Virus record (IMG/VR): IMGVR_UViG_3300044695_007705
Span: 18,311 to 82,310 of that record
Direction: 5' to 3' (one strand)
DNA from: a virus
Length of the DNA stretch: 64,000 nt
Shown here: one piece after another, positions 14,601 to 62,629 of the stretch
Layout of the letters: every line of letters starts with the position of its first letter
Numbering within the stretch: position 1 is the first letter of the stretch
Notes under the pieces: model-generated
Seen by the model: the letters and a program-made list of their open reading frames with translations, nothing else
Told to the model about the DNA's origin: nothing
Database searches by the model: none
Position numbers and translations under genes: made by a program

Positions 14601-14609
14601 GTTGAAAGC
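14601..14609 (+). promoter_or_regulatory. GTTGAAAGC upstream element, copy 6 (divergent pair)
   Basis: Reads AGTTGAAAGC followed by CAGTTATAGGG. It ends 20 nt before the TTG start at 14630. The AGGG may also serve as the ribosome binding site. Confidence 0.75.
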
Positions 14610-24212: not shown

Positions 24213-24545
24213 ATGGAAAAAGAGACCTTTTTAAGAAAAGTCGTACTCTTCGTACAGCCCGGATGCCCCGCTTGCGAAGCTATGAAACCGATTTGGGGAC
24301 AAGTGGCCGGAGAAGTATCTGAAGAATACCCAGAACTGCGTGTGGGCTGGGGAGAATACGACGTCACTGAGGACAACTGGGAATTTCTCGAATCACTTAA
24401 GCCGGGAACCTCCGGGCAAGGAACTCCAGAAATCGCTGTTTTTGACGAAGAATGCGATTTGATCGGGTTTAACGGTGAGGGCATTATGCCCGCTTCGCAA
24501 CTTAAAAGCTTCGTGATCAATTCGATTAAGGGGGGCAGAGCCTGA
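24213..24545 (+). CDS. thioredoxin-like protein, CPAC active site
   Basis: 110 residues. The active site CPAC (about 18-21) follows a VVLFVQPG strand, and GTPEIAVFDEE near residue 70 contains the cis-proline of the thioredoxin fold. It is a likely dithiol reductant. One obvious partner is ribonucleotide reductase, but the nrdA protein already carries its own glutaredoxin, so this one may serve other targets. It lies between terminase and sigma and its stop overlaps the sigma ATG as TGATG or ATGA, so expression is coupled. Confidence 0.85.
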   Translation: MEKETFLRKVVLFVQPGCPACEAMKPIWGQVAGEVSEEYPELRVGWGEYDVTEDNWEFLESLKPGTSGQGTPEIAVFDEECDLIGFNGEGIMPASQLKSFVINSIKGGRA

Positions 24546-30998: not shown

Positions 30999-31007
30999 GC
31001 TTTCAAC
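30999..31007 (-). promoter_or_regulatory. GTTGAAAGC upstream element, copy 8
   Basis: Reads AGTTGAAAGC on the minus strand, overlapping the stop of the 31007-31330 gene. It ends 25 nt before the ATG at 30973. Confidence 0.75.
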
Positions 31008-32844: not shown

Positions 32845-33034
32845 AGGGGGAGGATTGCTGTGTCGGAGAAGGGAAAAAAAGAGCTGCTGTAAACATCCAC
32901 CTGTCTACACAGGCATTGACTTGCCTGGGGCCCATAGACCAGTTAGGTATCTCGCAAAGCGCGATAAACGCTAGGCAGAACAACGCTTCGAATACAAAGA
33001 AGGCGACTCCCTCTGTTAATTTAATTTTGTCCAT
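32810..33034 (-). CDS. small membrane protein (possible holin/spanin helper)
   Basis: 74 residues. One hydrophobic segment (GVAFFVFEALFCLAFIALCEI, residues about 9-29) follows a short charged start MDKIKLTE. The C-terminal third is polar and Ser/Thr-rich. A small single-span protein with this polarity fits holin-like or pinholin-like lysis helpers, but no family was recognised. The start is supported by a late element 23 nt upstream with TATATAGGGG in between. Its gene overlaps phoH at the 3' end. Confidence 0.65.
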   Translation of the reverse strand: MDKIKLTEGVAFFVFEALFCLAFIALCEIPNWSMGPRQVNACVDRWMFTAALFFPSPTQQSSPSSSRTNRGTTK

Positions 33035-33057: not shown

Positions 33058-33066
33058 GCCTTCAAC
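33058..33066 (-). promoter_or_regulatory. GTTGAAGGC upstream element, copy 10 (divergent pair)
   Basis: Reads CGTTGAAGGC then TTTATATAGGGG on the minus strand. It stands head to head with copy 11 with 5 nt between, and ends 23 nt before the ATG at 33034. Confidence 0.75.
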
Positions 33067-33071
33067 GAAGA

Positions 33072-33080
33072 GTTGAAAGC
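33072..33080 (+). promoter_or_regulatory. GTTGAAAGC upstream element, copy 11 (divergent pair)
   Basis: Reads AGTTGAAAGC then CTCTTATAGGG on the plus strand, nearly identical downstream to copy 6. It ends 23 nt before the ATG at 33104. Confidence 0.8.
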
Positions 33081-36100: not shown

Positions 36101-36229
36101 AATGCTTACTCTCACCGCATCAAAATCGATTTCCCAGTAGACGAGACTTCTGTACCGGAAGACGCAACTGAGTACATAGGAAATAAAGAAAAGGTAAAAG
36201 ATTTCTACTTCCTGTACGTCTCGCTCTAA
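33104..36229 (+). CDS. large virion structural protein with PA14-like domain
   Basis: 1041 residues. The N-terminal 60 residues are basic and helical. Around residues 312-395 the sequence YNWGIRWEGYLRITPGIYAL has the pattern of a PA14/GLEYA-type beta-barrel (aromatic-Gly-x-aromatic strand, P-G-x-Y turn) used for carbohydrate binding. The remainder is beta-rich with many Asp, Ser and Gly, as in cyanophage tail adhesins. Its AT-rich codon use matches the other adhesin genes at 36-50 kb. The ATG is 23 nt after a late element. It is convergent with the next gene, overlapping by 4 nt. The PA14 call is by pattern. Confidence 0.7.
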   Translation: MATKVTKSSQLPSLNQDEVIRVLRRRAGKREGVSNFIGLKRSSALADVENPSDALNNVLDKISLVLDAGERNIYKRPYNSSDWRVTRDFVEKDINREFLSQLQGASIGGGILGSTVLTTPRIRIQDRISLLNSFYGEGSLPGLHSGPNAQFYRSPGSQVIGFVKFTIDVDNNIDLTELKAPDGSTNITESDVLDGGERVVLDIDSYQTPGGVLSSLSGTNITLILDSPNSWSVNQSSGRKLNSIKGIVGELVFGQLKFKISRQYSLLNPPLWFTESPDDSGTNIPGSGDDNDPETSRKVLVTSSSGDIIPYVEKGYWFTRAYVENRWTSRERTLVGDNSITQDSNMRWQTTPSPLKGEEYNWGIRWEGYLRITPGIYALQVQTNVSIKIDMDLGGWTNVFDTSTAAQESEDTYISGQSFDTDSLDSKYKYFFGDNLSTDWVAYVPIVIRMFNGGPDKAFPGLSLVSEPNLFIKTTKISQNRNWYRETFNVTLSGTDGNWVLTGPKISDLKSIREDSLSSISYSLISKDGQFFPSPVSISLSVSGGNLISNTTGLQAGNYELLVNPVRGPGFDSNLQALWKGRIASPSPSSKLYTDLTDSGYTPDQLRVPFDFRPPWWKFFDGSPYNRSDSPDIENTPLDGFIRNTFKSTLKSDVDGLGLYGNGLEPPTYSQRPNIILGESRYSLDSPKGSSYMGIKLTSNSLGEGGLFLIDSLPINNSVFNDSLLLGANDLGGSPNHLTIAGGKQTPQKAIFTLQDDDTDPDTYNKYFLFDGTPTQDDDPEDYGLPAFSSPVWDSPITIQAVRVADDIDFTDNVRPFVDVFVMGVEKILVSGYNVLAFTTTLSSILDEGEERNLFDEKYIEFYTESDLDYSYQRVDSGSSLSFSDVLKLTYDESDDIIPLESEIPRPPSSRVTPWGFDLAETSSGICYPPYATVNELLSDTAVSDEDLYDSPVGNYDVIWGDATKEDLGSNNLTITEKLEFSGDSSCIETISTPVTLSANAYSHRIKIDFPVDETSVPEDATEYIGNKEKVKDFYFLYVSL

Positions 36230-37801: not shown

Positions 37802-40800
37802 TTAAATCCTGAGTATTAAGCCGTCTGAAGAACGTCTCCAGCAAGAACCGGAAATTCCGGATGGGCAAGAGGCTAACTGTTCTAGTCCTGAGTCAGTTAT
37901 TGATTGGTTCCTGGTAGTAGGATCTTCGTACTCTGTAGAAATTACGGTTGAACCTGTCCGGGGGGACACATAATTAAATCCTAGTCCTATCCTTATACCG
38001 CTCAAATTCTTGAACCTTGACCCTAACGGATTTTCAGCTATTTGTTGAGTTTTGTCCCTCTTAGTCTTGTAATATTGCCCTGATACAAGGGCACCAGGCA
38101 CATTCAGAGTTCGTGTTCCAACTGATTCTATGGACTGAGATACTTGACCAAACTGATCGGCAACATTTACTATTCTGAAGGCGTTAAAGGTTTCACTTCT
38201 AGAAAGAGATGTCACAACGTCGTTCCCAGCAGATACTATCACCGGAAATACTTCTTGTTGTGTGTATTGAGAATATTTACCATCTGCTGTTATTTTATTC
38301 CCATCAAGTCTAACAAAGCAGTTAGTAAACTTTCTGAGTTTTTCTATCTCTAAAATTTCAGTTATAATTACACTTAACGTCTCCAAGCTAAAGTTATTAC
38401 CAGACAGGTTGATAGTTATTTTTCTATTGTTGCCTGAGAATATTTTAGTTAGACTACCTCCTTCGTATTCGGATATGAAATTTCGGGACAGATCAAATGC
38501 TGCTCTGTCGGAGTCTACAATTCTACCAAAGCCGGACCGGATATTGAGTTTTCCTGAAAGCCTGTTGTCAGCGCATCTAAATTGCAGAATTCCCGAAAAT
38601 CCTCTCCTGAACCAGTTATTTATGCTGTTGCTGTTCCGTGTAAAAATAAGAGCACTGGGCAAGGTTCCCGGTATGTCCCTATCTATTACTATTTCGTTAT
38701 CTTTTACACTTAAAACTCTAGCAAGTTCTACTCCCGAAAGCTCGAATCTTACCGAATCGTTTACTAATACTCTTTGTTTAAATCCTGTGCCCCCCGTTAA
38801 AACGTATTCGTTGTCTTTTTCGTTAAGTACACCTTCTGTGGGTATTCTTCGGGTTATCGACAGACCTGAGATTTCCGAAGCCGGGTCTGAATCCCTCACG
38901 CAAGAACCCCTTAATGAAGGGTTAAACCAATCACCTCTATAAGTGCTTATCAGGCTATTGGAAATATCGATTAGCGTAACTGTGGAGTTTGAAACTCCCT
39001 CAAAATTGGGTAGTATGGACCCCCCGTCTGCCGAGTTCTGCCCCCATGCAACTATCTCAACTACGTCTCTTCCGAATATAGAATTAGAGGAGGCGATAGA
39101 CAGGTTCGATAAGTCATAAAATCTAGACCCATTGGAAATAATTCTGACAGGCTTTGTTTCAAATTCTGGTACTTTTTTTGACGGCACTATAGGAAATCTG
39201 CCCGTTAGTGAAGACTCCCGTAAAGAAATTGTCTCAAGGTCATAAAGCTCTTTTAAATCGTTCTGTCTAAACTTATAGTTAAGTACAGATTCGCTAAATA
39301 TCAACTGTTTCAGTTTGTGCTCACTACCGGCACCCCTTACTGGGGCAAAATCCGGTGGGAGAAGGAAATTTATACCCGAACTCGTGTAAGGCAATAGCTC
39401 AGATCTCGAGCCACCGAGGTTGATGGAAACGAGGGCGCCCGTATTTTCTATAGGGCTTGATCCCAGGCTTGGGATTTTCCCCGTATTCCTGCAACCGAAG
39501 AACCCTGCGTTAACGAGGTTAGGCGTTTTAAATGGACCTGCGGAGTCATCAAAAATTACACCTCCCTCGGAAAGTGACATCTCCAGAGACGCTAAAGAAC
39601 TCCATATTCCATTCTGTAGATCGATGTTGACGTTAGTCCTGTTTGTGTTTATAGATACACAGCTCTCTCTCCAGTTTGCCCAATCTTCATCCGGGTTGTT
39701 TATAAAACCGTCGATATCATGTCTACCTTGATCTCTGCCACCTATGTTAAAATTACTAAATTTATACTTAGAGATGTGGCCATTATCTTCAGGATCGGTA
39801 GAAGTGCCTATTTCAATTATATCTCCTGAGGCCAAAGATCCGAAAATATTATAAGATATTTGGTTCCCGTTATTGTTAATTTTTGGTAAAGATCCGAACA
39901 AGTACCTATAAGTTCTTCTTTCATCGGTTTGATTGCCGCTTCTTCTATTTAAATTCAGGGACGTGAGGTTGGGGAAAACATCATCGAACCGGGGATTGTT
40001 AAGAAGAAACCTGTCTCTTAGGGAGATAGAACGTACGGAGGAGAATACCCTAAAGTCGGTACCTGGAGTTCTTTCTTGATCAAGAATATATTTTTCAAAA
40101 AGCTCATCCGACCAGTCGTCTCCAGTAGCTGCGACCATCGGTCCCTTCTTGGGGATTGTTAAATAGCTTACGCAGGTGTATAAGGGGTGCTGGAATGAGG
40201 GAGTAGCGGAGGGATTTCTTATATCAAACCAGCCCATGGGGCCGTTCCTCCAGGTATCACCTGAATTTTCCAGGTTCAAGTTTACTAACTTGTTGGAGAG
40301 GGTTTTTAGCCATATAGGTAATATGCTAACAGAAGTATCAGACAGTACTAAACTCTCAAGGTTGTTAAATCCTATAAGGCCTATGTCTTTACCGTCGCCA
40401 GTTTCTCTAATATTTATACCCGAAAACTCAATTCCAGTAACTTTCTCGGGGTTGACATATAGATAGAGATAAACATCAAAAAGATTTTGAAAACCAGAAC
40501 CGGTTATGTCTATGTTCAAGATAAATTCTCTCGTACCAGGTAATTGCGATACTTGTGTGACAGGAATGAAATCAACCCTGGGTCTATTCTGCCTTTGTTG
40601 CAAAGGTTGAATCTGGTAGCCGTAAAAGTAAGGTCTTTCAGAGTCTGAGAAAGTAAATTTTACTGACCCCACTCCGAGTCGGCAAAGCACCTTAAGGGGA
40701 GAGTTTTTGGTAGCCAGCAGCTTAAGTTCTGTCTCAGTCCCTGTGTTGCCGTTATCAACCCCAAGTTGAATAGTATATGAAGGATTTTCTAAGATCGGGG

Positions 40801-41410
40801 CTTTTGGGAGTATACTGTCCCTCGGTATAAAAATTCTATTAACGTGAGACCTTCTTCTGACTCTTATAGGTCCGGGATAAGAAGAGGTTTTAAAGTATCC
40901 GGGGTTCTCATCATCCTGCTCAATGTTAAAAAGACTCGCCCGGGAGGACGACAGATAAATATCAGACCGGGAAGGATTGCTAAAAAGTCTTTGATTGATT
41001 ACGTTAGATTTGTATTTTACACCTTGACATTGGATATTACCGTTATATAGAATAACGTTCGGAGTTTTAAGAACTGGGGATCCAGGGCCGCCCAGCGGCA
41101 CATCGGCATTGAAGAACTCTTTGTCTATAAAAAGACGATTCGGGATATTAATTTCGAAAACTTCACTTAACTGGTGCAGAGAACTTAATAGGGTGTCTGA
41201 AAGTCCAGATGCAGAACGTATATCTTCTCTGGATACACTCGTGCTCAGCCCGTAAATGCTATCTAAAACCTCAGGGGATATTAAAATATTCCTGAGAGCT
41301 TGCCTTTTGTCCGATTCAAAGATTTCAGAAAGATTTTGGAAACTGTCCGAAATAAGGCCTATGTCCGGCCTTGAAAAATTGCCAAATCCCTGGAATAAAA
41401 ATTCTGACAT
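37802..41410 (-). CDS. leucine-rich-repeat tail adhesin
   Basis: 1202 residues. Several irregular leucine-rich repeats are visible: FNNLESLVLSDTSVSILPIW and KLVNLNLENSGD (about 350-380), VRSISLRDRF and FPNLTSLNLNRRSG (about 455-490), DLYDLETISLRESSLTG-like units, FDLSRNFIS and ITINLSGNNFSLETL (about 970-1025). LRRs form curved solenoids that bind proteins, so this is a candidate receptor-binding tail protein. The first about 330 residues are beta-rich. The ATG at 41410 is 18 nt after a late element. LRR proteins are uncommon in phage virions and a second, smaller one lies at 60319. Confidence 0.78.
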   Translation of the reverse strand: MSEFLFQGFGNFSRPDIGLISDSFQNLSEIFESDKRQALRNILISPEVLDSIYGLSTSVSREDIRSASGLSDTLLSSLHQLSEVFEINIPNRLFIDKEFFNADVPLGGPGSPVLKTPNVILYNGNIQCQGVKYKSNVINQRLFSNPSRSDIYLSSSRASLFNIEQDDENPGYFKTSSYPGPIRVRRRSHVNRIFIPRDSILPKAPILENPSYTIQLGVDNGNTGTETELKLLATKNSPLKVLCRLGVGSVKFTFSDSERPYFYGYQIQPLQQRQNRPRVDFIPVTQVSQLPGTREFILNIDITGSGFQNLFDVYLYLYVNPEKVTGIEFSGINIRETGDGKDIGLIGFNNLESLVLSDTSVSILPIWLKTLSNKLVNLNLENSGDTWRNGPMGWFDIRNPSATPSFQHPLYTCVSYLTIPKKGPMVAATGDDWSDELFEKYILDQERTPGTDFRVFSSVRSISLRDRFLLNNPRFDDVFPNLTSLNLNRRSGNQTDERRTYRYLFGSLPKINNNGNQISYNIFGSLASGDIIEIGTSTDPEDNGHISKYKFSNFNIGGRDQGRHDIDGFINNPDEDWANWRESCVSINTNRTNVNIDLQNGIWSSLASLEMSLSEGGVIFDDSAGPFKTPNLVNAGFFGCRNTGKIPSLGSSPIENTGALVSINLGGSRSELLPYTSSGINFLLPPDFAPVRGAGSEHKLKQLIFSESVLNYKFRQNDLKELYDLETISLRESSLTGRFPIVPSKKVPEFETKPVRIISNGSRFYDLSNLSIASSNSIFGRDVVEIVAWGQNSADGGSILPNFEGVSNSTVTLIDISNSLISTYRGDWFNPSLRGSCVRDSDPASEISGLSITRRIPTEGVLNEKDNEYVLTGGTGFKQRVLVNDSVRFELSGVELARVLSVKDNEIVIDRDIPGTLPSALIFTRNSNSINNWFRRGFSGILQFRCADNRLSGKLNIRSGFGRIVDSDRAAFDLSRNFISEYEGGSLTKIFSGNNRKITINLSGNNFSLETLSVIITEILEIEKLRKFTNCFVRLDGNKITADGKYSQYTQQEVFPVIVSAGNDVVTSLSRSETFNAFRIVNVADQFGQVSQSIESVGTRTLNVPGALVSGQYYKTKRDKTQQIAENPLGSRFKNLSGIRIGLGFNYVSPRTGSTVISTEYEDPTTRNQSITDSGLEQLASCPSGISGSCWRRSSDGLILRI

Positions 41411-41428: not shown

Positions 41429-41437
41429 GCTTTCAAC
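41429..41437 (-). promoter_or_regulatory. GTTGAAAGC upstream element, copy 12
   Basis: Reads AGTTGAAAGC on the minus strand, just past the stop of the 41443-45474 gene. It ends 18 nt before the ATG at 41410. Confidence 0.75.
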
Positions 41438-48524: not shown

Positions 48525-50807
48525 TCAAAGGGTGTGAGCGATTAAGTTGCCGTCAGCGATAAAGTAGTTAGGACGGAGAATGAACAGATTGCCCCCGTCG
48601 AACTCGATGGGGTCGGGACCAATAGTCGATCCGGGAATCAGATCGATTAAGACTGAATTTGTTACAGGGTCGATACCTAGGATAGGGTAAGAAGAGTTTT
48701 GATTCCATCCGGAAATCTCGCTTACATTCTTAAACCCGCTGATTACGATAGAATCGTTTTCGGAAGTGGTGACGTTTGAATAAATTTGGAACCCAAGTAA
48801 ATCGCTTGAATTTCTTAACTGAATAGCGATGTAGTTTATACCTTCTACTATCGCTCTACGAATTGAAAATGGCCTGAAGCCGCGTGTCGAGTTTCCTATC
48901 AGAACAGAAGCATTAACTTCGTAAACATACCCGTTTGGGTTGTTTAGCGACTGAGTTGAAGGTATAGTCTTGCCCTCTATTACTTGGGGAGTAACTCCTG
49001 GTAACGTTACGGAGAAAATGCCCACATCGAGTTGAGCTTGGGTCTGAAGAACTCTGAACGATCCTACTTGAGCGGATTTTTGACCTTCCTGATTCAACTC
49101 AAATATTTTCGCGTCTACCGAATCTCTAGCTATAGAGACTGACTCACCACCGTAAGTAACAGTCATGAATACGGGGTCGAGAGAAAATCCCTTTCTAACT
49201 TCGATAGTCGCTTTACTGTACTCGTTGTTATATGTATCTATAGAGCGGATTAACGAATCATTATCGCTGTATGCGAGATTTCCTTGCGAGTTCCATTGAG
49301 ACGAAGTCTCTAGATTGATTCCTTTGTCGCCACACCCTCTCACAATATTACCGTTAATCGTGCTGTACTCCGTGCTTATAATCTGCGGGCCGGTAGTAGC
49401 AAGCAAGGCGGTATTGCCCTGGACGACCATGTTCTCGCTTGTATCGATTATGAACGGGGCTACACCTTGCTCGTAAGGCCTTCCCGACCTTATCACCCTA
49501 TTGGCCGTTATAGACCCAGAATTACAGCTATTTACAAAAAACCCGCCACCTCCATTATTAACAAAAGTACACTCGTTAATCACCAGATTATCAATATTCT
49601 TCAGATTAAGCGAGACTTCAGACGTTATAGGGGAGAGTAAGGAGAAAGTCTCGCCAAAATTACCGTCAAAATACATCGAACGGAGTGTCAACCCCGATAC
49701 TCTAGAATTTGTGGGTTGTCCGTTAAAGCTGAAAAGACCCGGATTTATTGAACTAGGTACTGTACAAGGTAATCTTTTAATAACGGACGCGTTTCCCACA
49801 CCCCTTAAGGAAAGGCTAGAATAATCGAATTGTGAAGAATTATTGAAAGACAAATCCCGGGTGTTGTAACTACCGGCCGGGAAAAAGACTTCTTTAACCA
49901 GTCCAGAAGCCGCCAGGTTAACCGCCTCTCGAATATACCTAGTATCGTCTATCTGAAAATAGACAGTGTCTCCAGGGGACATTTGACTGCCCTGTGAAAT
50001 ACCAGAGCACTGAATAAAGGAACTTTGTTGTCCCAGTACTCCAGGTAAAATCCTAAAGCTTTCCTTAGAAGTTAGCCTTTTTAACAGAGTAACTTGGCCG
50101 CCGGATGCCGAAAAAACTTCTTTTAAATGCTCAGGGAGTACGGGATCATCATGCCAAGCAGCGTATTCTGTACTGCCAAGGTCTCGGAAAGTAATCAACC
50201 CGGATCCGGGATATCCAATCTTATTATTGCCAATGACACCCAAAAAGTCTAATTTATTACCCCACTGCCTGTAAATTACAGGTAATACAAAGTTAGAATT
50301 TCTGGAAAAATTGAGTTGAACGTATTGAGCCGTGTTCCAAAAGTTGGGATTTAATACTTTAGAGGTAGACTCGGGAGTCGGTTTTACCTCATACCTAATA
50401 GGCTGGCTTGTAATAACACCTTTTGATACGTCGTAGCCAGTAATGTAGTAAGTTAAAGCTGCGAGGTTGGGATTTGTACCTGTGGATGAAGAAAAGTCTA
50501 TATCTCCTACTGCTGAGTGCCCAGTAATCGAGATATTGTTCGGCTGCGAGGGGAAGTTAATGCTGTAGCTGAAGGAGAGAATTTCAGTGCCCGCCCTTAA
50601 AAGGTCGGAATATTGGAAAAGAGTTCCTCCCTGGCCATCAGAAATAGACGATATTGTTACAATATTATTCGAAATGTCAGTCACCGAGCCAGTAAAGGAT
50701 AATTCCCCCCGCCCAGAAGCCCCGATGTTCTTGACATTTATGTAAGAATTCTTGTCTTCAGGAACTTGAACTATGAATTCCGTCCCGAATTGCGGAATGT
50801 ACCTCAT
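48525..50807 (-). CDS. right-handed beta-helix tail protein (pectate-lyase-like fold)
   Basis: 760 residues. From about 310 to 530 there are stacked repeats typical of parallel beta-helices: LTLRSMYFDGN, IDNLVINECTFVNNGGGGFF, ITANRVIRSGRP, ENMVVQGNTALLA, YSTINGNIVRGCGDKGINL. A preceding strand-rich region and a following C-terminal trimerisation-like part complete a tailspike-like plan. It could bind or cleave surface polysaccharide, but I could not point to catalytic residues. The ATG is 20 nt after a late element and the gene is followed by the paralogous fibre pair, suggesting a joint adhesion apparatus. Confidence 0.8.
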   Translation of the reverse strand: MRYIPQFGTEFIVQVPEDKNSYINVKNIGASGRGELSFTGSVTDISNNIVTISSISDGQGGTLFQYSDLLRAGTEILSFSYSINFPSQPNNISITGHSAVGDIDFSSSTGTNPNLAALTYYITGYDVSKGVITSQPIRYEVKPTPESTSKVLNPNFWNTAQYVQLNFSRNSNFVLPVIYRQWGNKLDFLGVIGNNKIGYPGSGLITFRDLGSTEYAAWHDDPVLPEHLKEVFSASGGQVTLLKRLTSKESFRILPGVLGQQSSFIQCSGISQGSQMSPGDTVYFQIDDTRYIREAVNLAASGLVKEVFFPAGSYNTRDLSFNNSSQFDYSSLSLRGVGNASVIKRLPCTVPSSINPGLFSFNGQPTNSRVSGLTLRSMYFDGNFGETFSLLSPITSEVSLNLKNIDNLVINECTFVNNGGGGFFVNSCNSGSITANRVIRSGRPYEQGVAPFIIDTSENMVVQGNTALLATTGPQIISTEYSTINGNIVRGCGDKGINLETSSQWNSQGNLAYSDNDSLIRSIDTYNNEYSKATIEVRKGFSLDPVFMTVTYGGESVSIARDSVDAKIFELNQEGQKSAQVGSFRVLQTQAQLDVGIFSVTLPGVTPQVIEGKTIPSTQSLNNPNGYVYEVNASVLIGNSTRGFRPFSIRRAIVEGINYIAIQLRNSSDLLGFQIYSNVTTSENDSIVISGFKNVSEISGWNQNSSYPILGIDPVTNSVLIDLIPGSTIGPDPIEFDGGNLFILRPNYFIADGNLIAHTL

Positions 50808-50824: not shown

Positions 50825-51007
50825 CTAGCTTTCAACGAAAAATCTAGAAAGTATCGGGTTTGTATCCATACCGGCACTTTTCAACTCGTCCAAAGCTGCT
50901 CTAAAGGCTTTTTCTTTGCCCGGATCAGCTTTCAAATTTTTAAGCTTCGATTCTATTTCCTGCGGGTCGGGGAAAATACCCTCGATGTGATATACATCAG
51001 ATATCAT
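50825..51007 (-). CDS. small helical protein, last gene of its unit
   Basis: 60 residues. It is strongly charged and helical (PQEIESKLKNLKADPGKEKAF), with no domain recognised. It overlaps the upstream gene by 11 nt, which supports coupled translation. The stop lies just before the late element at 50828, in fact the element starts 3 nt from it. A small assembly factor or linker protein is possible. Confidence 0.65.
   Translation of the reverse strand: MISDVYHIEGIFPDPQEIESKLKNLKADPGKEKAFRAALDELKSAGMDTNPILSRFFVES
50828..50836 (-). promoter_or_regulatory. GTTGAAAGC upstream element, copy 13
   Basis: Reads CGTTGAAAGC after ATTTTT on the minus strand and lies within the 3' end of the 50825-51007 gene. 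It ends 20 nt before the ATG at 50807. Confidence 0.75.
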
Positions 51008-53861: not shown

Positions 53862-55829
53862 TTACATGAAGTAAGGAGCGAATGAGGACCAGTATCCTGT
53901 CTTTTCAGGATCGAGTACGACGCATTCGCGATGCAATACCGCACGATTCAATCTATAAGACTTACTGTAAATATTTATGAGAGTTTCGATCTCGTCTTGC
54001 GAAAATTCCTCCTCGCGCATTATTTTCTGCTCGTAAGTCGTCATTTCAATCCGATAGTGATTAGCCGTTCCATAATGTTCGTTCGAACCGACACCAGGGA
54101 TATTTCTCACCTCTTCAAGTAGGCGTTTTGTTGTGAAAACGATATCGCCGGGTGTAGTATGCTCGTCGATGTTAAGTTTGGAAGTTTCGGAGTCCAGACC
54201 ACTAATACCTGTGCTGATGCGTTCCCAGCCAACCTCGTCCAATCCACCCTGATTAAATCTTTCCGCAATTTTTTTAGATACCTTATCTCTGACCGTCTTG
54301 TCCTTAAGATCGCCGGACTCATCAAACTCGGAAAAGTCAAGGTTATCGGCAGACACGTAGTTGTTGCGCGAGACGAGTTGGCCGAGTGTCTTTTCGCCCA
54401 TAACCAGAGGTTCCGGCTCGTCCTTTTTCTGGTGAACAATGCCCTTAGGAAAGGCTCCTGGTTGAGATTCCGACATTCCCGGCATCATTCCATCCATGCC
54501 GGGTACTTCGCCTTTTTCAAGAGACGGGATTTCAAGCTTGTCTCTGACCCAGTCCAAGTCAGAGATTTGGTATCCCAAGGCCTGGAGTTGTGACATTATC
54601 TGGACAACTTTTACCGGATCTTCGCGCTGTTCAAGGTCTTCGAAGTTCCGACGCAGCCGGGGCACTGACGAGCCGGGATAGTTAAGTTCTACAATCCAGC
54701 GAACAAGAGTAGCGTTTAACGTCTCGTCAATCTGCTCGCTGAATGCTTTCGCTTTGCGCATTCGAACACTGTCCGCCACGTTATCCCTAGCATAACTTCC
54801 TACCGATCCTGTATCCTGTCCGACTGTCGACTCGCCGTTGATAAGAAAAGAGATCTGTCTATCAATATAACTGATAATATTCTCGTACATTTCTGGTCTC
54901 CCTTCACCCCCGCTCAGCCAATCGACATCCATTTCGTCTGGTATTACAATGGCGGTCTCTTGGCCAAGCCGTTGTAACGCGGTGAACAACGATTTAACCT
55001 CTTCTTCTGGTGTGCCCAGGCTGAATTTACCCACTGCTGTCGGGGTTGTATGCTTATCTGCGTATTGCAGCCAAAAACTCATCAAAGTACGCCGGAATTC
55101 TACTAACGAATACAACTGACGCCCTAGTCCTGTACCATAGGGGTCCATGTTATTACTATAAGCCCAGTGCCTGTGAATGACCATGCTGCGCATGGGGATC
55201 GGAAGGCCTTCTACAGGGGATTGTATAGTGATTACTCTAGGACTGATAGACCCGTCTTCATTCAGGACGAACTGGAACCGGCGCGGATCTCGTATCTTGA
55301 TTTCGGCGGGGACAACGTAGCCCCCTTGACGCATCCAGCAAATCTCGCCAATACTTATACCGAGTATTAACGATTCGCACATTCCTCGTACGAAAGAGTC
55401 AAAGCCGGAGTTAGAAGTAGCGAGCATGTCGCGCCCCCTGGTCTGCCTGGTATTCGTCCCGAGGTGGTAGATAGTTTGACGTACGAATTCCGCGATTTCC
55501 TCGTCCTTGTCAGAGTCGGAAGCCGGAAACACTTCCCACTTGCGTTGTATAATCTCGCCAACAAGCTTTTCCCACGCACTTATAACCGCACTGTCATTAA
55601 ACAGCCGGGTATAAGACTCGATGGCGCGTGGGCCGCCCCCGCCCTCCTCAATAAGGATGTCGTCCCGCCTTGGAAGGATAGTTCCGGCTAAGACGGACGG
55701 AAGACCTCCCCACGTGTAAGGATCTGATAAATAACCTCCCACATTTCCTTGACTCAGGCTCAGGTTGTAGAGGCGGTCGTTATAGCCAGTTTTTACTATA
55801 CGCTTTTTATCGGTAGGCTGATCTGCCAT
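53862..55829 (-). CDS. portal protein, DUF935 (Mu gp29-like) family
   Basis: 655 residues. The first about 440 residues have the DUF935 portal pattern: LILGISIGEICW (about 150), IRDPRRFQFVLNEDG, IHRHWAYSN and MDPYGTGLGRQLYSLVEFRR. Portal rings form the DNA gate and the packaging motor dock. A C-terminal extension of about 200 residues (after residue 450, with MDGMMPGMSESQPG as a hinge) is charged and may be a scaffold-like or internal domain. The ATG lies 24 nt after a late element. The portal type is Mu/P2-like rather than T4 gp20-like, unlike what the cyanomyovirus-like fibres would suggest. Confidence 0.83.
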   Translation of the reverse strand: MADQPTDKKRIVKTGYNDRLYNLSLSQGNVGGYLSDPYTWGGLPSVLAGTILPRRDDILIEEGGGGPRAIESYTRLFNDSAVISAWEKLVGEIIQRKWEVFPASDSDKDEEIAEFVRQTIYHLGTNTRQTRGRDMLATSNSGFDSFVRGMCESLILGISIGEICWMRQGGYVVPAEIKIRDPRRFQFVLNEDGSISPRVITIQSPVEGLPIPMRSMVIHRHWAYSNNMDPYGTGLGRQLYSLVEFRRTLMSFWLQYADKHTTPTAVGKFSLGTPEEEVKSLFTALQRLGQETAIVIPDEMDVDWLSGGEGRPEMYENIISYIDRQISFLINGESTVGQDTGSVGSYARDNVADSVRMRKAKAFSEQIDETLNATLVRWIVELNYPGSSVPRLRRNFEDLEQREDPVKVVQIMSQLQALGYQISDLDWVRDKLEIPSLEKGEVPGMDGMMPGMSESQPGAFPKGIVHQKKDEPEPLVMGEKTLGQLVSRNNYVSADNLDFSEFDESGDLKDKTVRDKVSKKIAERFNQGGLDEVGWERISTGISGLDSETSKLNIDEHTTPGDIVFTTKRLLEEVRNIPGVGSNEHYGTANHYRIEMTTYEQKIMREEEFSQDEIETLINIYSKSYRLNRAVLHRECVVLDPEKTGYWSSFAPYFM

Positions 55830-55853: not shown

Positions 55854-55862
55854 GCCTTCAAC
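55854..55862 (-). promoter_or_regulatory. GTTGAAGGC upstream element, copy 16
   Basis: Reads CGTTGAAGGC on the minus strand with a second GTTGAAA 10 nt upstream. It ends 24 nt before the portal ATG at 55829. Confidence 0.72.
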
Positions 55863-55868
55863 GAATTT

Positions 55869-56087
55869 TCAACCCCTAGGGTCTTTGGATTTAAACACTA
55901 CGTCAAGATTCATAATTGCGTCGTACAACGCTTCGCGGTCCATGCCTCCCCGTTCGTACATGTCAATCACCTCTTCCGCGCCGTCCAGATATACGCCAGA
56001 ACTCCCGTCGGTCAAGATGTTTATGCCGTCCACGCCTTTTGCGCGACTCTCATTCTCGTCTGAATGCTTCTTAGATCTTTTTGCCAT
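55869..56087 (-). CDS. small acidic protein, overlapping gene
   Basis: 72 residues from the ATG at 56087, preceded by GGAG 10 nt upstream. It is charged, with a short basic start (MAKRSKKHSDE) and an acidic remainder (AEEVIDMYERGG). Its first 67 nt overlap the 3' end of the upstream gene in another frame, which is more than the usual 1-20 nt seen elsewhere here. A DNA-binding or scaffold-type small protein next to the portal is plausible. The true start could also be slightly different. Confidence 0.55.
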   Translation of the reverse strand: MAKRSKKHSDENESRAKGVDGINILTDGSSGVYLDGAEEVIDMYERGGMDREALYDAIMNLDVVFKSKDPRG

Positions 56088-56785
56088 TGTTTCAAATACT
56101 CCGGTAGGTGTTGGTGGCAGCTTTGTTTCCAATTAGCGTGACTGGAAAACTCGCTTGGGGGGTTATCAGGAAAATTCTTCCTCAAAAGCTTTACACCAGC
56201 CTCAACAAAGTTTTCGTTGCAGTTGCCATAAGCTTCTTCGAGAAGGTCGAGTTCGATATACGGGTAGTGTTTTGCAAATTCTGTAAACAAAGGTGAGTGG
56301 ATAATCCGTTTGGATTCTGTAACCGTCAAGGAGTTTATTTTATCTTGTACGATTCGGGAATCGAAGTCGGGGATCAGAGAAATCGCGTCAAGGACTTTGC
56401 CCGGGCCGTGCTCGTCGATCAAATCTGCAAATATCCTGTTAACAGCGGTCAAAGATACTTTGGCATCTTTGGCTTCCGGCCAACGCTCAAGCCGTTTACC
56501 ACACCAGGATATTGATATAAGGTCGGAGTACAAGTCCGGGATTTCAATCCCGGGTAAGGTTGAAGTGTATTCTTTGGCGCCTTTGCGGACGCTGCTTAAG
56601 GCGATAAGTCCTTGTTCCTTGGGTTGGCATTGTCCGTGCGAGGTTTCTGAATTGAAGTCGGAGACCCCGGACTCCTCCTGCTTAAGACTCCTGCTCAGGA
56701 GCAGCATTTCCTTCTGGTGACGGTGGGTCTCCAGAGTCTTCCACTTGTCGTGTGCGATTAGTTCTCGGATGATTTCCAGATTCAC
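56021..56785 (-). CDS. hypothetical protein between small late genes and portal
   Basis: 254 residues from a GTG at 56785. The N-terminus overlaps the preceding gene by 104 nt; an internal ATG at 56707 (MLLLSRSLKQEES) with AAGGA just ahead is an alternative start that would reduce the overlap to 26 nt. The body is helical (RIFADLIDEHGPGKVLDAIS, ELDLLEEAYGNCNENF) and acidic, with a C-terminal helical basic tail. No family recognised. It is positioned like a small terminase subunit or scaffold gene ahead of the portal, but this is only from context. Confidence 0.55.
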   Translation of the reverse strand: MNLEIIRELIAHDKWKTLETHRHQKEMLLLSRSLKQEESGVSDFNSETSHGQCQPKEQGLIALSSVRKGAKEYTSTLPGIEIPDLYSDLISISWCGKRLERWPEAKDAKVSLTAVNRIFADLIDEHGPGKVLDAISLIPDFDSRIVQDKINSLTVTESKRIIHSPLFTEFAKHYPYIELDLLEEAYGNCNENFVEAGVKLLRKNFPDNPPSEFSSHANWKQSCHQHLPEYLKQWQKDLRSIQTRMRVAQKAWTA

Positions 56786-57179
56786 GGAGGTTTTGTTTTA
56801 CAATGCCGACAATGTCCTTGTACGACCAGCAATATTCTACCGCGCTCAGGGAGCCCGGGGGGATCCGGCCCGAGTCGACCCCACGGTACATAAGGGCACC
56901 CAGCTCGGTCTGCAACGCTTTGCCAGGCTCGTCGTAAACCGCCAGCTTGAGGGCTTTGTCCAGGGCGAGGTGGAGGTAGGCCAGGGTGACGTGATCGTAC
57001 CCGCAGAAGATGGTGTAGTCGGCCTGCGGCAGCGCTTTGAACCCACTTGTCAAAGTGCAAGTTTTCACGTCAACACCTTCAATCTCTTTCAAAACACCTT
57101 CGAGGTGTTGAATCATTTTACCAAGGCTGGGCTCTAAGCTAGTTTTTTCCGTAAACAGCAAGGAGACTTTGTATGACAT
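56682..57179 (-). CDS. hypothetical protein with Rossmann-like core
   Basis: 165 residues. The central part (DYTIFCGYDHVTLAYLHLAL, LKLAVYDEP) alternates hydrophobic strands and helices like a small nucleotide-binding or TOPRIM-like fold; no catalytic residues can be fixed. The C-terminal 30 residues are Pro/Gly-rich and probably disordered. GC is clearly higher (about 56840-57060) than in the neighbours, which may mark a more recent arrival or high expression. The ATG is 24 nt after a divergent late element. Function unknown. Confidence 0.6.
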   Translation of the reverse strand: MSYKVSLLFTEKTSLEPSLGKMIQHLEGVLKEIEGVDVKTCTLTSGFKALPQADYTIFCGYDHVTLAYLHLALDKALKLAVYDEPGKALQTELGALMYRGVDSGRIPPGSLSAVEYCWSYKDIVGIVKQNLRESGNHPRTNRTRQVEDSGDPPSPEGNAAPEQES

Positions 57180-57203
57180 AGGATTAATATAATCTCACTA
57201 AGG

Positions 57204-57212
57204 ACTTTCAAC
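57204..57212 (-). promoter_or_regulatory. GTTGAAAGT upstream element, copy 17 (divergent pair)
   Basis: Reads CGTTGAAAGT on the minus strand, the only copy not ending in GC. With copy 18 it forms a perfect inverted repeat. It ends 24 nt before the ATG at 57179. Confidence 0.65.
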
Positions 57213-57220
57213 GGTTTTTC

Positions 57221-57229
57221 GTTGAAAGC
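57221..57229 (+). promoter_or_regulatory. GTTGAAAGC upstream element, copy 18 (divergent pair)
   Basis: Reads TTTTTCGTTGAAAGC then TCGGGAGAAG on the plus strand. It ends 21 nt before the TTG at 57251; GGGAG is a good ribosome binding site. Confidence 0.75.
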
Positions 57230-57250
57230 TCGGGAGAAGAGCGTAGAGTC

Positions 57251-60200
57251 TTGACGATTACAGTCAGAGAGAAGGTTGATGCTATTGTTTCCCGTGCCTT
57301 TGACCGGTACGGCTACTTCAGCCCGAACATTAATAGAAATAAGTTCTTTGATATTTGCGTAGAAATTGTTCTTGACGTAAGCGATTTAATTGACTCTGGG
57401 AAAATCCCCAACGCGAAACTTTTAAAAGGTGAGATTGTAAGGTCGTTGTACGCGTTAGACTTTGATAGGGATAAAATTTCCTCCATAATAAGTTATGTTT
57501 TTGATGAAATAGTTAAAGAGACAAGGCTTGTCAGGGAATACAGGACTTATGAAAAACTTGTACTAGAGGCGGTTCAGGACTATAAATCGCTTTTTAGGAC
57601 GGGAATAGTAGAGTATTTGAATGGACTAGAGCAATATCGAGTTTCCGGCCTGATAACAAGGCCGAGGAATAAAAGGTTTTTCCCCGTTCGCGAAAGCTTT
57701 GAGAATTCCCGCCTTAAAGATAAGTTTTCCACCGTTTTCAGCTCCAGATTAAAAGATAAGACGGATGCGATAACTCGTGCGGTATTTGAGATTAATAATA
57801 TTACTTCCGATTCAGACGTTTTAGATTACGAGCTACCCGGCGACATTGATACCGACTTGTTAACAGCTACTTTTTTCGGAGGTGGCAAGAAAATATATCA
57901 AGATGTTGTTGACTTGTTTAATATTGGTAGTGAATTTGGAGGGTATCAGGGATCGTTTTCCGGGGCTGTCGATTACCAGTCCCGGTACTACGGATACGTG
58001 ATGGCTGTCTCGTATGGGAGAAAGACGGAATTTCTGAACGAGGAATTTGGGGACTTTGAAAAAGTCTTCGAACAGCGAACTTTGCAAAATAACGAGATAC
58101 CGGGGCTTAAGTTCTTAGAGCCGATGTTCAGGTTCAAAGATGGTAACAGTACAAATCCTTTGGTAGACAAGTTCAAAGATGGAGTCAAAGATCGATATGT
58201 TGCCGGGGTTATAAACGAAAATGAAGTCGATTTTGTAAAACTTACCCTCGAATCCATTTACATATCTTGTCTTAAGGTCGGCAATTCGATCTACGATAAA
58301 AGTTCTTTGCAAATGGATATATTGTCCAGGGTATTTCCATCTCCCCCCGCTTTGTACAAGTCGGATAAGGGGATTACTGGGGGAATATATACCCTGCTGT
58401 CCGGACACATCAGCCTTTCAACTTTACTCGGCCCGGGAAACATCCCCGACTACCCTGTTACCGACGCGTTTAAACGTATAAAGCAAGAAGTCGATTCTTT
58501 AATCGATAGCTTTAAAACGACCGGATTCAAACCGGAGGGATATGTTCCCTCGCTCGAATTAAATTACCACGAGCCGAGAAAATCTTTGATAAGAGATAGG
58601 ATCAAATCGCTGGGTTTTACAGAAGTGGAAATCGATAAAATAATGTCGGCGAACAACTTCTCCGAGCTGTTAAATTCTCTAGCACCGTTGACCGATTCGA
58701 ACGATGTTATTTCATTTTTCCGGGCATTCGACCTTACTAAGTTAGTGTATGAATTTGGCGGGCAAAATGCCATTGACGAGTATATTAACTTTTTGTACGG
58801 CAAAGATGAGCAGCAATCTTTAATCCGGTTGTTGGGATTTTTAGATGTAAACCGCACACAAAGGTCGATAATCGCTGGGAGTAAATATCCCAAACTTATA
58901 GGGTATTTGATAAGTTTGACTTATGCTGTAGACCCTGAACAGCTCCAGATATTCAACGAGTTTCTTAAAGACAATCAGCTTAGCCTTCTCGAATCTGTAT
59001 CAAAACTTATAGAACAAGGCCAGAGCAATGTAATCCTTCCAAAAGAAAAGGTTTCTTTGCTGTCTGGAATGGTGGCGCAGATGGTTGTAAGCGATAACTC
59101 TGGATATGAGAATCAGAAACCGACATGGAACTCTCTTATTGAGCAATCGGCGGGTAATTCCGGCCCAAGCGTTAGAGGTATGTACAAGGAGAGAGAGGGA
59201 ATTACGCCAACAGAGTTATACGATATTCTTAATAACCCCAGCGCAACCTCTCCCTTAGGCGTTATGCTTAACGGGGTGAGAGGGGGTCGGCTTACATCCA
59301 TTCTCAGGTACTGTAACATCTTCGGACTTTTGTATTCGTTGTCCGATTATCGAAATTCTTATCAGTTGATGAATGAACCGGCTGAAAGGTATGATAAGCT
59401 GCTTGAACTTGTATCGAATTTAGAGGTACTTTCTGATAATCTCGAACTTGGAGCTTTAGTCTTGGAAAATAGAGATAGTTTTCAAGCAGATTTCACTGAA
59501 CCACTAGTAAAAGTACAAGGAAAAGTGTTTGAAGCGGTTGTTGATGTTGTATCGGGTGGAGATGGATCTGAATTCGCTCTTGTTGAGCCACCCGGCACAG
59601 GAAACTCTCGCCTCCCTAACGGTGTAAGAATAAATAACTCTTTGACTCCCGAGGAAGCGTCAGTCTTGGTAGTTGACAGCCTGGGTTCAGGATCGCAACA
59701 ATCAACGTTAAGTGTGGACTCTGGGTCATACATACGTCTCTCGTTATCCAACATACTCGCACAAGGCGTTCTTTTTGAGCAAGGTATGCCTCTTGAGCAA
59801 TCTCCTGGGCAAGATGCAAATGTGCCAGGCAAAGATAAATCTTTACAAGTTCAAGTCTATGAAAAAGGTAATACGATTTTACAAGCAAGAAGCAAATTTA
59901 ATCCTGCAGAGTCTTGTAAAAGATTTGGAGGTACGGACTGCGATCAACTCGGTATTGATAAATGTGAAGGAAGCGGCTATAATAAATCTTTTTATCCTGA
60001 AGTTGGATACGGTACCGAATCTCCTATTCCCGGTATTTTAATAGACAGACCGTTAGGCCAGAGGTTAACTGTTGAAATTGTCCCAGACAACATAGTTAAA
60101 AGCGATACAAATTACTACTACTCTTTACAGGGTATTACTGAGCTTTCTCGATCCACTGTATTCAAAGATAACGAGATGCTCTGCTCGTCCATCAAAGACC

Positions 60201-60322
60201 CGTTTGAATACAGTGCATGCATCTCTATGCTTAAGTGTAAGAGGTTTGACCCCCCGTACCGAGGTAAATATTTCTTTGAGTTCTGCCCGAGATCATTATT
60301 CGGAGGAAGATTGGCGCCATGA
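57251..60322 (+). CDS. large virion-type protein of unknown function
   Basis: 1023 residues, TTG start, with GGGAG 14 nt upstream. The N-terminal two-thirds is helical and charged, while the C-terminal third is beta-rich with Gly/Ser turns and a cysteine cluster (ESCKRFGGTDCDQLGIDKCE, near 885-905; CSSIKDPFEYSAC, C-terminal). I do not recognise a family. It begins the plus-strand unit opposite the portal unit, sharing a head-to-head late element pair, so it is probably a major late structural or internal capsid protein. The downstream LRR gene overlaps it by 4 nt. Confidence 0.65.
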   Translation: MTITVREKVDAIVSRAFDRYGYFSPNINRNKFFDICVEIVLDVSDLIDSGKIPNAKLLKGEIVRSLYALDFDRDKISSIISYVFDEIVKETRLVREYRTYEKLVLEAVQDYKSLFRTGIVEYLNGLEQYRVSGLITRPRNKRFFPVRESFENSRLKDKFSTVFSSRLKDKTDAITRAVFEINNITSDSDVLDYELPGDIDTDLLTATFFGGGKKIYQDVVDLFNIGSEFGGYQGSFSGAVDYQSRYYGYVMAVSYGRKTEFLNEEFGDFEKVFEQRTLQNNEIPGLKFLEPMFRFKDGNSTNPLVDKFKDGVKDRYVAGVINENEVDFVKLTLESIYISCLKVGNSIYDKSSLQMDILSRVFPSPPALYKSDKGITGGIYTLLSGHISLSTLLGPGNIPDYPVTDAFKRIKQEVDSLIDSFKTTGFKPEGYVPSLELNYHEPRKSLIRDRIKSLGFTEVEIDKIMSANNFSELLNSLAPLTDSNDVISFFRAFDLTKLVYEFGGQNAIDEYINFLYGKDEQQSLIRLLGFLDVNRTQRSIIAGSKYPKLIGYLISLTYAVDPEQLQIFNEFLKDNQLSLLESVSKLIEQGQSNVILPKEKVSLLSGMVAQMVVSDNSGYENQKPTWNSLIEQSAGNSGPSVRGMYKEREGITPTELYDILNNPSATSPLGVMLNGVRGGRLTSILRYCNIFGLLYSLSDYRNSYQLMNEPAERYDKLLELVSNLEVLSDNLELGALVLENRDSFQADFTEPLVKVQGKVFEAVVDVVSGGDGSEFALVEPPGTGNSRLPNGVRINNSLTPEEASVLVVDSLGSGSQQSTLSVDSGSYIRLSLSNILAQGVLFEQGMPLEQSPGQDANVPGKDKSLQVQVYEKGNTILQARSKFNPAESCKRFGGTDCDQLGIDKCEGSGYNKSFYPEVGYGTESPIPGILIDRPLGQRLTVEIVPDNIVKSDTNYYYSLQGITELSRSTVFKDNEMLCSSIKDPFEYSACISMLKCKRFDPPYRGKYFFEFCPRSLFGGRLAP

Positions 60323-61089
60323 TCTTAGGGTATTGTAAACTTGCCGACGGAAATACCAAACTTCTCGAATTCGGTAAAGGTAAAGAATTTAATTATGTCA
60401 AAGGACAAGAAATTGTAAACGCAGAGATTAAGCGTCAGCTTAAGGATTCAATTGAGATAGGTATTGATTTGAAATCGTCAGGTATTGAGAGGTTGAAGAT
60501 TACAAACCAGTCTGTGTTGACATGGGATGATCATTGGATTGATAGGAATAGCGGAAAAATTGTAGATCCGGAAATTCAAGAGCTAGTTTTAAGCCAGAAC
60601 GATCTAATATATGTCAATATTAATACTCCTCGCCCATCACTTAAGATCTTGGATCTTAAGGGGAATAAAGGTTTAAAAGTATTACATTTGCACGAGTGTT
60701 TTAATCTTGAAGCTTTAGATATTTCGGAATGCCAAGCGCTGGAGAATGTGTCTCTAGGGGTGAACAAAAACATTCAAACTTTAAACGCGAAAGATTGCAA
60801 CATGACATCGAGTGCAATGGAGCAGTTACTGAGAGATTTTACTCCTGTAATAACGGCAAGTTCGAATAGCAGGGGTGCAGGAGCGTTTCGTTCGCCACAT
60901 AACACGCTGCTCGATTTGCGTGGTAATGTTATTGATTGGTCGAATAGGCGTATTGCCAGCAAAATAAGAATGCTCGTCACTAATAACTGGGTAGTTAAGT
61001 GGAGTAATAATCCTCCCGCCGAAATAGTACCACCCCAACTGTACGCTCGATTCGTTGAAAGCCGAATAGGGATATCGGAATTCAAATAG
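60319..61089 (+). CDS. leucine-rich-repeat protein, second copy type
   Basis: 256 residues. Five or so repeat units are visible: IQELVLSQNDLIYVNINTP, LKILDLKGNKGLKVLHLHEC, FNLEALDISECQALENVSLG, IQTLNAKDCNM, LLDLRGNVIDWSNR. Such a short LRR solenoid binds a protein partner. The N-terminal 80 residues are a different, charged domain. The ATG overlaps the upstream gene by 4 nt (ATGA type), and the 3' end contains a late element for the next gene. Together with the 1202-residue LRR protein it makes two LRR proteins in one phage window. Confidence 0.8.
   Translation: MILGYCKLADGNTKLLEFGKGKEFNYVKGQEIVNAEIKRQLKDSIEIGIDLKSSGIERLKITNQSVLTWDDHWIDRNSGKIVDPEIQELVLSQNDLIYVNINTPRPSLKILDLKGNKGLKVLHLHECFNLEALDISECQALENVSLGVNKNIQTLNAKDCNMTSSAMEQLLRDFTPVITASSNSRGAGAFRSPHNTLLDLRGNVIDWSNRRIASKIRMLVTNNWVVKWSNNPPAEIVPPQLYARFVESRIGISEFK
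61054..61062 (+). promoter_or_regulatory. GTTGAAAGC upstream element, copy 19 (inside coding sequence)
   Basis: Reads CGTTGAAAGC then CGAATAGGG, within the last codons of the LRR gene (the encoded Val-Glu-Ser). It ends 26 nt before the GTG start at 61089. Confidence 0.75.
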
Positions 61090-61958
61090 TGGCGGATTTA
61101 CGCACGAGGTTTATCGAGGATTACGCGGGCGGCTTGCTTAATGTTGCAAGGCAAGAACTTTCTAGTACGGGCGAGGTACTAGCGCAGGATGGTTTTCCTG
61201 AGACAGGGAGTCTGTTCGTTGAAGACGGCAGAGGGGTAAAGTCCGGGATCCGGCTTGGTGCAAGCTTGGCAGAGTGTGTCGATCCTGTAACCCAGACGGG
61301 CATCTTGAATGTAAGAAGTGCGGATAGGACGTACGCTAAAATACGCGAACTAAAGATATTTGCAACGGCAATTGCATCGTCCCAAGCCGCCTTAAGCGAG
61401 TCGGTAGCAGAATCTGCTCAGAATCTGGAATCCGCCTTTGAGACGCTGGAAAGTGAGTTTGAAAGGCTGAGTGTTGGTGTTTCGGGAGAAGTTGAAACAG
61501 TCAACACGTCTTTGGGGCTGAGAATCTCAAGTGTCGAGCAAGGTGTTGAAATCCTGACAAACCGGGTTTCGCAACTTGAGCAGGAAGAGGCACCCGAGCC
61601 GGATCAGGACAGAGTTGTAATTCTCGAGCAAAGTACAGGGCCGATAAATGATCAAGACTCGTTCGAACTCGATCTTAACTCGGCCAGGTATTTTGGTCTT
61701 TTATCAATCGAGACGAGTGTCCCAGCTTGGATTACTGTTTATACAGATAGGGCGGCCAGGGCCAGAGATGAGAGGTCCGGGCCAGGTCCTGGTCCCGGTG
61801 TGATTGTCGATGCGGTCACAACCGCTCAAAACTTTCAAGTCGATTATTTACCACTGGTGGTGGGATATTCGGAAAACGGCATTCTCAGGGTTCGGGTGGT
61901 GAATCAGTCGGGTAGCAGGAACAAGGTTAACGTCAAGCTACGGCATATCCGCCTCTAA
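61089..61958 (+). CDS. coiled-coil fibre/collar protein
   Basis: 289 residues, GTG start that overlaps the LRR stop by 1 nt. A head domain (about 1-90) is followed by a heptad-rich coiled coil (about 95-165, SAQNLESAFETLESEFERLS), and a C-terminal beta domain with SARYFGLLSIETSVPAWITV and a Gly-Pro stretch (GPGPGPGV). Trimeric coiled-coil plus beta tip is the plan of whiskers and short tail fibres. The C-terminal domain type recurs in cyanophage structural proteins. It is convergent with the next gene, overlapping by 21 nt. Confidence 0.72.
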   Translation: MADLRTRFIEDYAGGLLNVARQELSSTGEVLAQDGFPETGSLFVEDGRGVKSGIRLGASLAECVDPVTQTGILNVRSADRTYAKIRELKIFATAIASSQAALSESVAESAQNLESAFETLESEFERLSVGVSGEVETVNTSLGLRISSVEQGVEILTNRVSQLEQEEAPEPDQDRVVILEQSTGPINDQDSFELDLNSARYFGLLSIETSVPAWITVYTDRAARARDERSGPGPGPGVIVDAVTTAQNFQVDYLPLVVGYSENGILRVRVVNQSGSRNKVNVKLRHIRL

Positions 61959-62303
61959 AGTGTCTATTAGCCAGCATATTGTTTCCAGCCCGAGTCTAAT
62001 GACTACGACGGGTTGTGTTTTGGTAAATACGTAAAACAATATTCCTTCTTGCCTTTCTTGTTGCTCAGGGAACAGCGTTCTGAACGTTTTGTCATGAATA
62101 TCCTCACCCCCCAGCATTTCGTACACGCTGTCGGGGTCAAAAACCCACATCACATTCGAGCGGTCTTTAGTGGCAACGTAAAGCGCGAAGGGAGTACGAT
62201 TATCGGCAATATACCTCAACGACTCAAGCACACCTTCCTTGTCGCCAGTCTTGTTCAAAGACTGAGCGAGTATTTTTCTCTCCTCGGGCGTGTTAATTGA
62301 CAC
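61938..62303 (-). CDS. small hypothetical protein
   Basis: 121 residues. It is charged at the N-terminus (TPEERKILAQSLNKTGDKEG) and hydrophobic in the C-terminal half (LFYVFTKTQPVVVIRLGLETICWLIDTLE), which could be a beta-strand and helix packed together. No domain recognised. Its ATG overlaps the previous gene by 11 nt, so the two form a coupled pair under the 62621 late element. It ends inside the fibre gene on the other strand. Confidence 0.62.
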   Translation of the reverse strand: MSINTPEERKILAQSLNKTGDKEGVLESLRYIADNRTPFALYVATKDRSNVMWVFDPDSVYEMLGGEDIHDKTFRTLFPEQQERQEGILFYVFTKTQPVVVIRLGLETICWLIDTLEADMP

Positions 62304-62586
62304 GGTAGGAACGAGCCTTTGAATTAAGGCCTAGTCGAGAGTAGATCTGCCTTGTCATGGACAAGGCGAGTTTTCTATCTTTCTCGGTTAGAAAGATCAC
62401 GCCGGACTTAAATGCCGGTTTATCTGAGTCTTTTGCAGGAGGAGCAGCCTCCGGCTCGGATTTGAAATCCGGCACTTTGTTGAGGGGGTGAGACTTCTCT
62501 AAGGGGGGAGTTTCCCGCGCTTGCATTTCTTCTGGCCCACTCTCGCCAGGCTGCGATTTGCGACTTTGAGAACGAGTTTCCGCCAT
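62293..62586 (-). CDS. small charged protein, first gene of its late unit
   Basis: 97 residues. The first two-thirds is highly polar and Pro/Ser/Lys/Glu-rich (MAETRSQSRKSQPGES), likely disordered; the last 25 residues (GVIFLTEKDRKLALSMTRQI) form a probable helix. A scaffold, internal head or DNA-associated role is possible. The ATG is 34 nt after a late element, a longer spacing than most. Its 3' end overlaps the next gene by 11 nt. Confidence 0.6.
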   Translation of the reverse strand: MAETRSQSRKSQPGESGPEEMQARETPPLEKSHPLNKVPDFKSEPEAAPPAKDSDKPAFKSGVIFLTEKDRKLALSMTRQIYSRLGLNSKARSYRVN

Positions 62587-62620: not shown

Positions 62621-62629
62621 GCTTTCAAC
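62621..62629 (-). promoter_or_regulatory. GTTGAAAGC upstream element, copy 20
   Basis: Reads CGTTGAAAGC on the minus strand. It ends 34 nt before the ATG at 62586 and is the last phage-type signal before the composition change at 62657. Confidence 0.7.

Follow-up and report, generated by a model that had tools for sequence, protein, structure and literature searches.

Head-to-head core elements between divergent genes in a contig of the cyanophage S-TIM5 lineage, and their proposed reading as compact late promoters

Background: compact and bidirectional promoters

The late promoters of phage T4, with the core TATAAATA, are read by gp55 together with gp33 and the gp45 clamp. The T4 genome (NC_000866) has one overlapping head-to-head pair of such cores at 116450-116461, TATTTATAAATA. 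T4 late promoters consist of an 8-bp -10-only signal with no -35 element, and those of the T4-type phage Aeh1 vary at -13/-12 (PMC2988020). A different type of compact arrangement is found in the bidirectional promoters of E. coli, in which starts usually separated by 10, 18 or 23 bp arise from one shared -10; simultaneous binding in both orientations is excluded (PMC12825309).

The element described here, if read as we propose below, resembles the T4 late system in being a -10-only signal without a -35 element, in serving virion genes and in its use of a phage sigma factor on the host RNA polymerase. It differs in its core sequence, and the candidate sigma factor is larger than gp55, to which profile comparison does not connect it, and is SigF-like with a region 3. 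With the E. coli bidirectional promoters it shares a compact, pseudo-symmetric sequence from which the starts would diverge and, probably, mutually exclusive orientations. Unlike them, it has two separate and complete cores, 0-24 nt apart, in place of one shared -10, and its predicted starts lie about 29-53 nt from each other. The S-TIM5 lineage of phages is already known, as is its sigma gene; a description of the promoter of this lineage, of its two dialects or of conserved pairs was not found in the searchable open literature, outside which the original S-TIM5 paper falls.

The contig and its relatives

The window, a stretch of 64,000 nt, runs from base 18311 to base 82310 of a viral contig 82,310 bp in length. 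No tRNA genes were found in the contig, and a nucleotide BLAST of the contig against the phage collection returned no relative. The portal gene (53862-55829, minus strand) has 53 relatives among viral contigs; among cultured phages it comes closest to Synechococcus phage S-TIM5 and the kin of that phage, with 57-59% identity (S-TIM5 57%). The sigma factor encoded in the window is 39% identical to the S-TIM5 sigma factor gp108, and the gene order around the portal is common to the window and S-TIM5, as are two of the three head-to-head pairs described below. On these sequence comparisons the contig is a member of the cyanophage S-TIM5 (Aurunvirus) lineage.

The core element and its two dialects

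The element GTTGAARG is present in 24 copies in the window and 27 in the contig, against a mean of 5.6 and a maximum of 12 in shuffled windows. The relatives fall into two clades, a G clade with GTTGAAAG and a T clade, including S-TIM5, with GTTTAAAG, and in this core the window differs from S-TIM5. The same division is seen in front of the portal gene, where the element is GTTGAAAGC in relatives with a portal identity of at least 73% and GTTTAAAG, at the equivalent spot, in the remaining relatives, S-TIM5 included. In an unbiased count of 8-mers, GTTGAAAG is the most over-represented word in three G-clade genomes (G000, G001 and G004) and is among the top over-represented families in the fourth (G033). 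GTTTAAAG comes top in all five T-clade genomes (G019, G032, G014, G023 and S-TIM5).

Other words are over-represented as well. The contig is rich in TCCGGCTC (17 vs 3.2) and CGTCTTGC (16 vs 3.8). G033 (L102-L106, IMGVR 3300005512_000010) carries 21-25 interspersed copies of a repeat with TGGGCCGT/TAACGGCC where about 2 are expected, and G023 (L129-L134) contains GGTATAAT 10 times against 1.1 expected, which is possibly an extended -10 early promoter for the host sigma factor.

Cores mostly occur singly. Per genome, 15-26 of them sit 10-60 nt before a called start, where 0.5-1.1 would be expected at random, and roughly one third of cores have no called gene clearly downstream. The following single cores are found in the window:

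55855-55862, minus strand: core GTTGAAGG, 33 nt before the portal gene 53862-55829 (minus)
50829-50836, minus strand: core 29 nt before gene 48525-50807 (minus)
41430-41437, minus strand: core 27 nt before gene 37802-41410 (minus)
31000-31007, minus strand: core 34 nt before gene 30242-30973 (minus)
61054-61061, plus strand: core with an ATAGGG box, 35 nt before gene 61089-61958 (plus)
7315-7322, minus strand: core 33 nt before gene 6768-7289 (minus)
62622-62629, minus strand: core 43 nt before gene 62293-62586 (minus)

A second, partial core, GTTGAAAA (55866-55873, minus strand), lies 11 nt ahead of the portal core.

In S-TIM5, virion and packaging genes make up 18 of the 27 genes preceded by a core 20-60 nt upstream, compared with 47 of 212 (22%) overall (P ~1e-7), the sites having been assigned to genes by hand from the annotation tables. 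In the same tables, the genes of this phage annotated for DNA polymerase, primase, ribonucleotide reductase and photosynthesis have no core within 60 nt upstream. The element is very probably an on switch for virion genes.

Anatomy of one unit

When aligned on the core, the G-clade sites read G T T G A A A/G G C, followed by T13 A14 G15 A/G16. Of the 69 G-clade sites, 27 have a TAG that starts at +13, and in the T clade its start is scattered over +13 to +15 (34 of 129 sites). This conserved TAG box lies 5 nt past the core; it is weak on some sides at pair A (57205-57228 in the window), and the longer form TATAGGG is present at only a few sites. The start codon follows the core at about 26-50 nt, with a peak at 29-35 nt in both clades.

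The position-information profile of the aligned sites contains neither a -35 signal nor a second -10 signal around the cores. Positions more than 15 nt upstream of the core carry less than 0.2 bit; stronger upstream positions adjoin the core or correspond to the facing core in pairs. The suggestion in a preliminary description of the window that all of the signal lies within the core and downstream of it is borne out, as information is found there and none at the -35 position. As with T4-type late promoters, there is thus an 8-bp, -10-like core with no -35 element. The geometry of the unit suits an extended -10 that spans about -14 to -7, the TA of TAG being the putative start; a -35 element would fit it poorly.

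Back-to-back pairs at divergent junctions

At three places in the window two cores stand head to head, with gaps of 2 nt (pair C), 5 nt (pair B) and 8 nt (pair A), and divergent genes flank every one of the pairs:

57205-57212, minus strand: pair A, core GTTGAAAG, serving gene 56682-57179 (minus); ortholog of S-TIM5 57054+
57221-57228, plus strand: pair A, core GTTGAAAG, serving the 1023-aa gene 57251-60322 (plus); ortholog of S-TIM5 57048-
33059-33066, minus strand: pair B, core GTTGAAGG followed by TATAGGGG, serving gene 32810-33034 (minus)
33072-33079, plus strand: pair B, core GTTGAAAG followed by TATAGGG, serving the 1041-aa gene 33104-36229 (plus)
14591-14598, minus strand: pair C, core GTTGAAGG, serving a minus-strand gene that ends at 14079 and has its ATG near 14564; ortholog of S-TIM5 122802+
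14601-14608, plus strand: pair C, core GTTGAAAG followed by TATAGGG, serving the 334-aa gene 14630-15634 (plus), which directly precedes the Baseplate_J gene; ortholog of S-TIM5 122790-

TTG appears to be the start codon of the large genes on the plus strand at pair A (57251) and pair C (14630), and GTG or TTG starts are common among the relatives at junction C.

The preliminary description had reported the element on both strands, 2-8 nt apart, at these three sites and had assigned the pairs to divergent genes, and both statements hold: three head-to-head pairs within 30 nt compare with a mean of 0.007 and a maximum of 1 in shuffles. It had also singled out a perfect inverted repeat at 57204. 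The arms, CTTTCAACG (57205-57213) and CGTTGAAAG (57220-57228), are indeed perfect 9-mers around a 6-nt loop, GTTTTT, although the coordinates were off by one and the repeat is merely two copies of the 9-nt core. Since the minus cores of pairs B and C are the variant GTTGAAGG, pair A is the only perfect inverted repeat of the three in the window.

The back-to-back order, which the preliminary description had proposed looking for in other phages, is present at orthologous junctions of the relatives. Across nine genomes there are 17 divergent pairs with a gap of 40 nt or less, against about 0.8 under random placement and against only 2 convergent and 2 tandem pairs. Junction A is found in seven genomes from both clades, junction B in four G-clade genomes and junction C in four genomes including S-TIM5; the flanking genes are orthologous to those of S-TIM5 at two of the three window junctions (A and C). 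Amongst the wider relatives both exact cores are kept at 20 of 29 distinct junctions for A, 13 of 15 for B and 18 of 30 for C, and at junction C the cores of some T-clade relatives are degenerate. Relatives keep the layout of the pairs despite the different core letter.

The spacing within the pairs can be tight. All 16 exact T-clade pairs at junction A have a gap of precisely 5 nt, whilst at junctions B and C six pairs each have a gap of 0, which produces a perfect 16-bp palindrome, CTTTCAACGTTGAAAG or the variant CCTTCAAC, often flanked on both sides by GTAG boxes. The arrangement has a simple geometric reason: the start codon stands about 30 nt from the core on each side and the intergenic regions measure about 50-85 nt, which forces two promoters into contact. 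What makes such touching promoters non-trivial is that nothing upstream of a core is needed.

The phage sigma factor

The window encodes a candidate reader of the core:

24545-25270, plus strand: phage sigma factor, proposed reader of the core; Sigma70_r2, SigF-like, with regions 2 and 3 and a C-terminal helical domain

This sigma factor is encoded in every searched record of at least 85 kb. Region 2 (Sigma70_r2) is detected in 23 of 23 homologs and a weak region 3 in some, and none of the 23 has a profile match to region 4. The best solved relatives are regions 2-3 of cyanobacterial SigA, and the closest named models are SigF/SigBFG, below cut-off. A comparison with T4 gp55 gave no profile link (hhalign probability 0.6%), and there was no T4-like BLAST hit. 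The AlphaFold model (mean pLDDT 77, pTM 0.37) contains a C-terminal helical domain and is aligned by Foldseek with sigma factors over about 230 columns, most of their length, with a large rmsd that is presumably due to domain orientation. The C-terminal helical domain and the nearly whole-length Foldseek matches mean that a degenerate region 4 is possible.

The helix of region 2.3/2.4 follows the two dialects, reading FSTWLNRSxxFQ with GTTGAAAG and FSTWVNRxLxFH with GTTTAAAG. Residues S88 and T90 were considered as the sole specificity residues and rejected, as L213/L214 have N at 88 with GTTTAAAG and L191 has N at 90 with GTTGAAAG. These exceptions leave Q/H92 as the residue that tracks the core, along with L/V85 and L,V,I/M93. 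Residue Q437 of sigma70 reads -12, and by an ungapped alignment with SigA residue 92 of the phage protein adjoins the Q437 position. We hypothesise that the sigma helix and the promoter base have changed together. That the G/T switch arose independently more than once was also considered and discarded, as on the sigma tree the switch is a single split with full support; the covariation hence represents one event and is not independent evidence.

Proposed mechanism and alternatives

The core is probably an extended -10-only late promoter that is read by the phage sigma factor with the host RNA polymerase. The sigma factor (24545-25270), on the host RNA polymerase core, would read GTTGAAAG(C) as an extended -10, its counterpart in the sister clade would do the same with GTTTAAAG, and no -35 element would be used. 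The TA in the TAG(A) box, some 14 nt further on, would be where transcription starts, leaving a leader of about 15-20 nt before the start codon. For pair A the predicted starts are:

57198-57199, minus direction: TA of TTAGTG, placed from the TAG box
57234-57235, plus direction: placed from the position of the TAG box

As the whole signal would then occupy only about 17 nt, two promoters can stand head to head with their cores 0-24 nt apart, and a single intergenic region of about 50-85 nt would serve divergent genes both ways. The preliminary description, although largely right in spirit, had two polymerases starting almost from the same place. The predicted starts of a pair are instead separated by about 30-37 nt in the window, and by about 29-53 nt over all pairs, and, judging from the size of the polymerase, there would be no room for two on one pair at once. 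A polymerase would load in either orientation but not in both, so that the two directions would alternate.

Several other identities for the core have been considered. The -35 of the B. subtilis SigB/SigF type is GTTTAA, which the core resembles. A role as such a -35, recognised by region 4 of a sigma factor of this type and with a weak -10 downstream, would suit both a sigma factor that is closest to the SigF/SigBFG models, albeit below cut-off, and a C-terminal helical domain that could be region 4. This is nevertheless unlikely, as no information is seen at the expected -10, 12-17 nt further on, the profiles do not detect region 4, and a conserved TAG box follows just 5 nt past the core; moreover, many cores are 26-32 nt from the start codon, which would put the starts on or after the ATG. 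The fairly constant distance between core and start codon might also be expected of a 5' leader RNA element or a translation signal in mRNAs made from other promoters, and paired leader RNAs had been put forward in the preliminary description. Such a role is improbable in view of the lack of any promoter motif upstream of the cores or of an Rfam match, and the zero-gap pairs leave no space for promoters between the two cores, so that each leader would need to begin within the opposite core or past it.

A promoter for a T7-like single-subunit polymerase, with specificity in the core and initiation at TATAGGG, is suggested by GTTGAAAGCCWSTTATAGGG, which resembles a T7-type promoter in two of the window pairs. 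TATAGGG is confined to few sites, however, and no protein matching PF00940 was found in any of 11 records (the contig, nine relatives and the complete S-TIM5), although T7, the positive control, was detected; this makes the idea very improbable. A search of the contig, the nine relatives and complete S-TIM5 for the multisubunit polymerase family PF00562 was negative too. Least credible of all is that 57205-57228 forms an intrinsic terminator or other RNA hairpin, the former having been named at the outset as a possible one-strand role for the pair. A stem of 9-10 bp with a predicted energy near -11 kcal/mol can be drawn, but it sits between two gene starts, neither strand has a U-run, the terminator scan reports nothing, the gap varies among relatives and cores mostly occur singly.

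Significance

The extended -10 reading of the core would give the S-TIM5 lineage a late-gene promoter code that can be put to the test. The zero-gap pairs would represent minimal two-way promoters, where, upstream of the -10, only the opposite promoter can matter. More tentatively, and with considerable doubt, this widespread cyanophage lineage may have a late sigma-promoter code of its own that switched naturally between T and G at the core base at about -12 along with the helix that faces it (Q/H92), with palindromic pairs, some of them zero-spaced, kept at fixed junctions as two-way switches that balance divergent genes. A natural one-base change in a promoter, accompanied by a few changes in its sigma factor, would offer a clean case of the evolution of promoter specificity.
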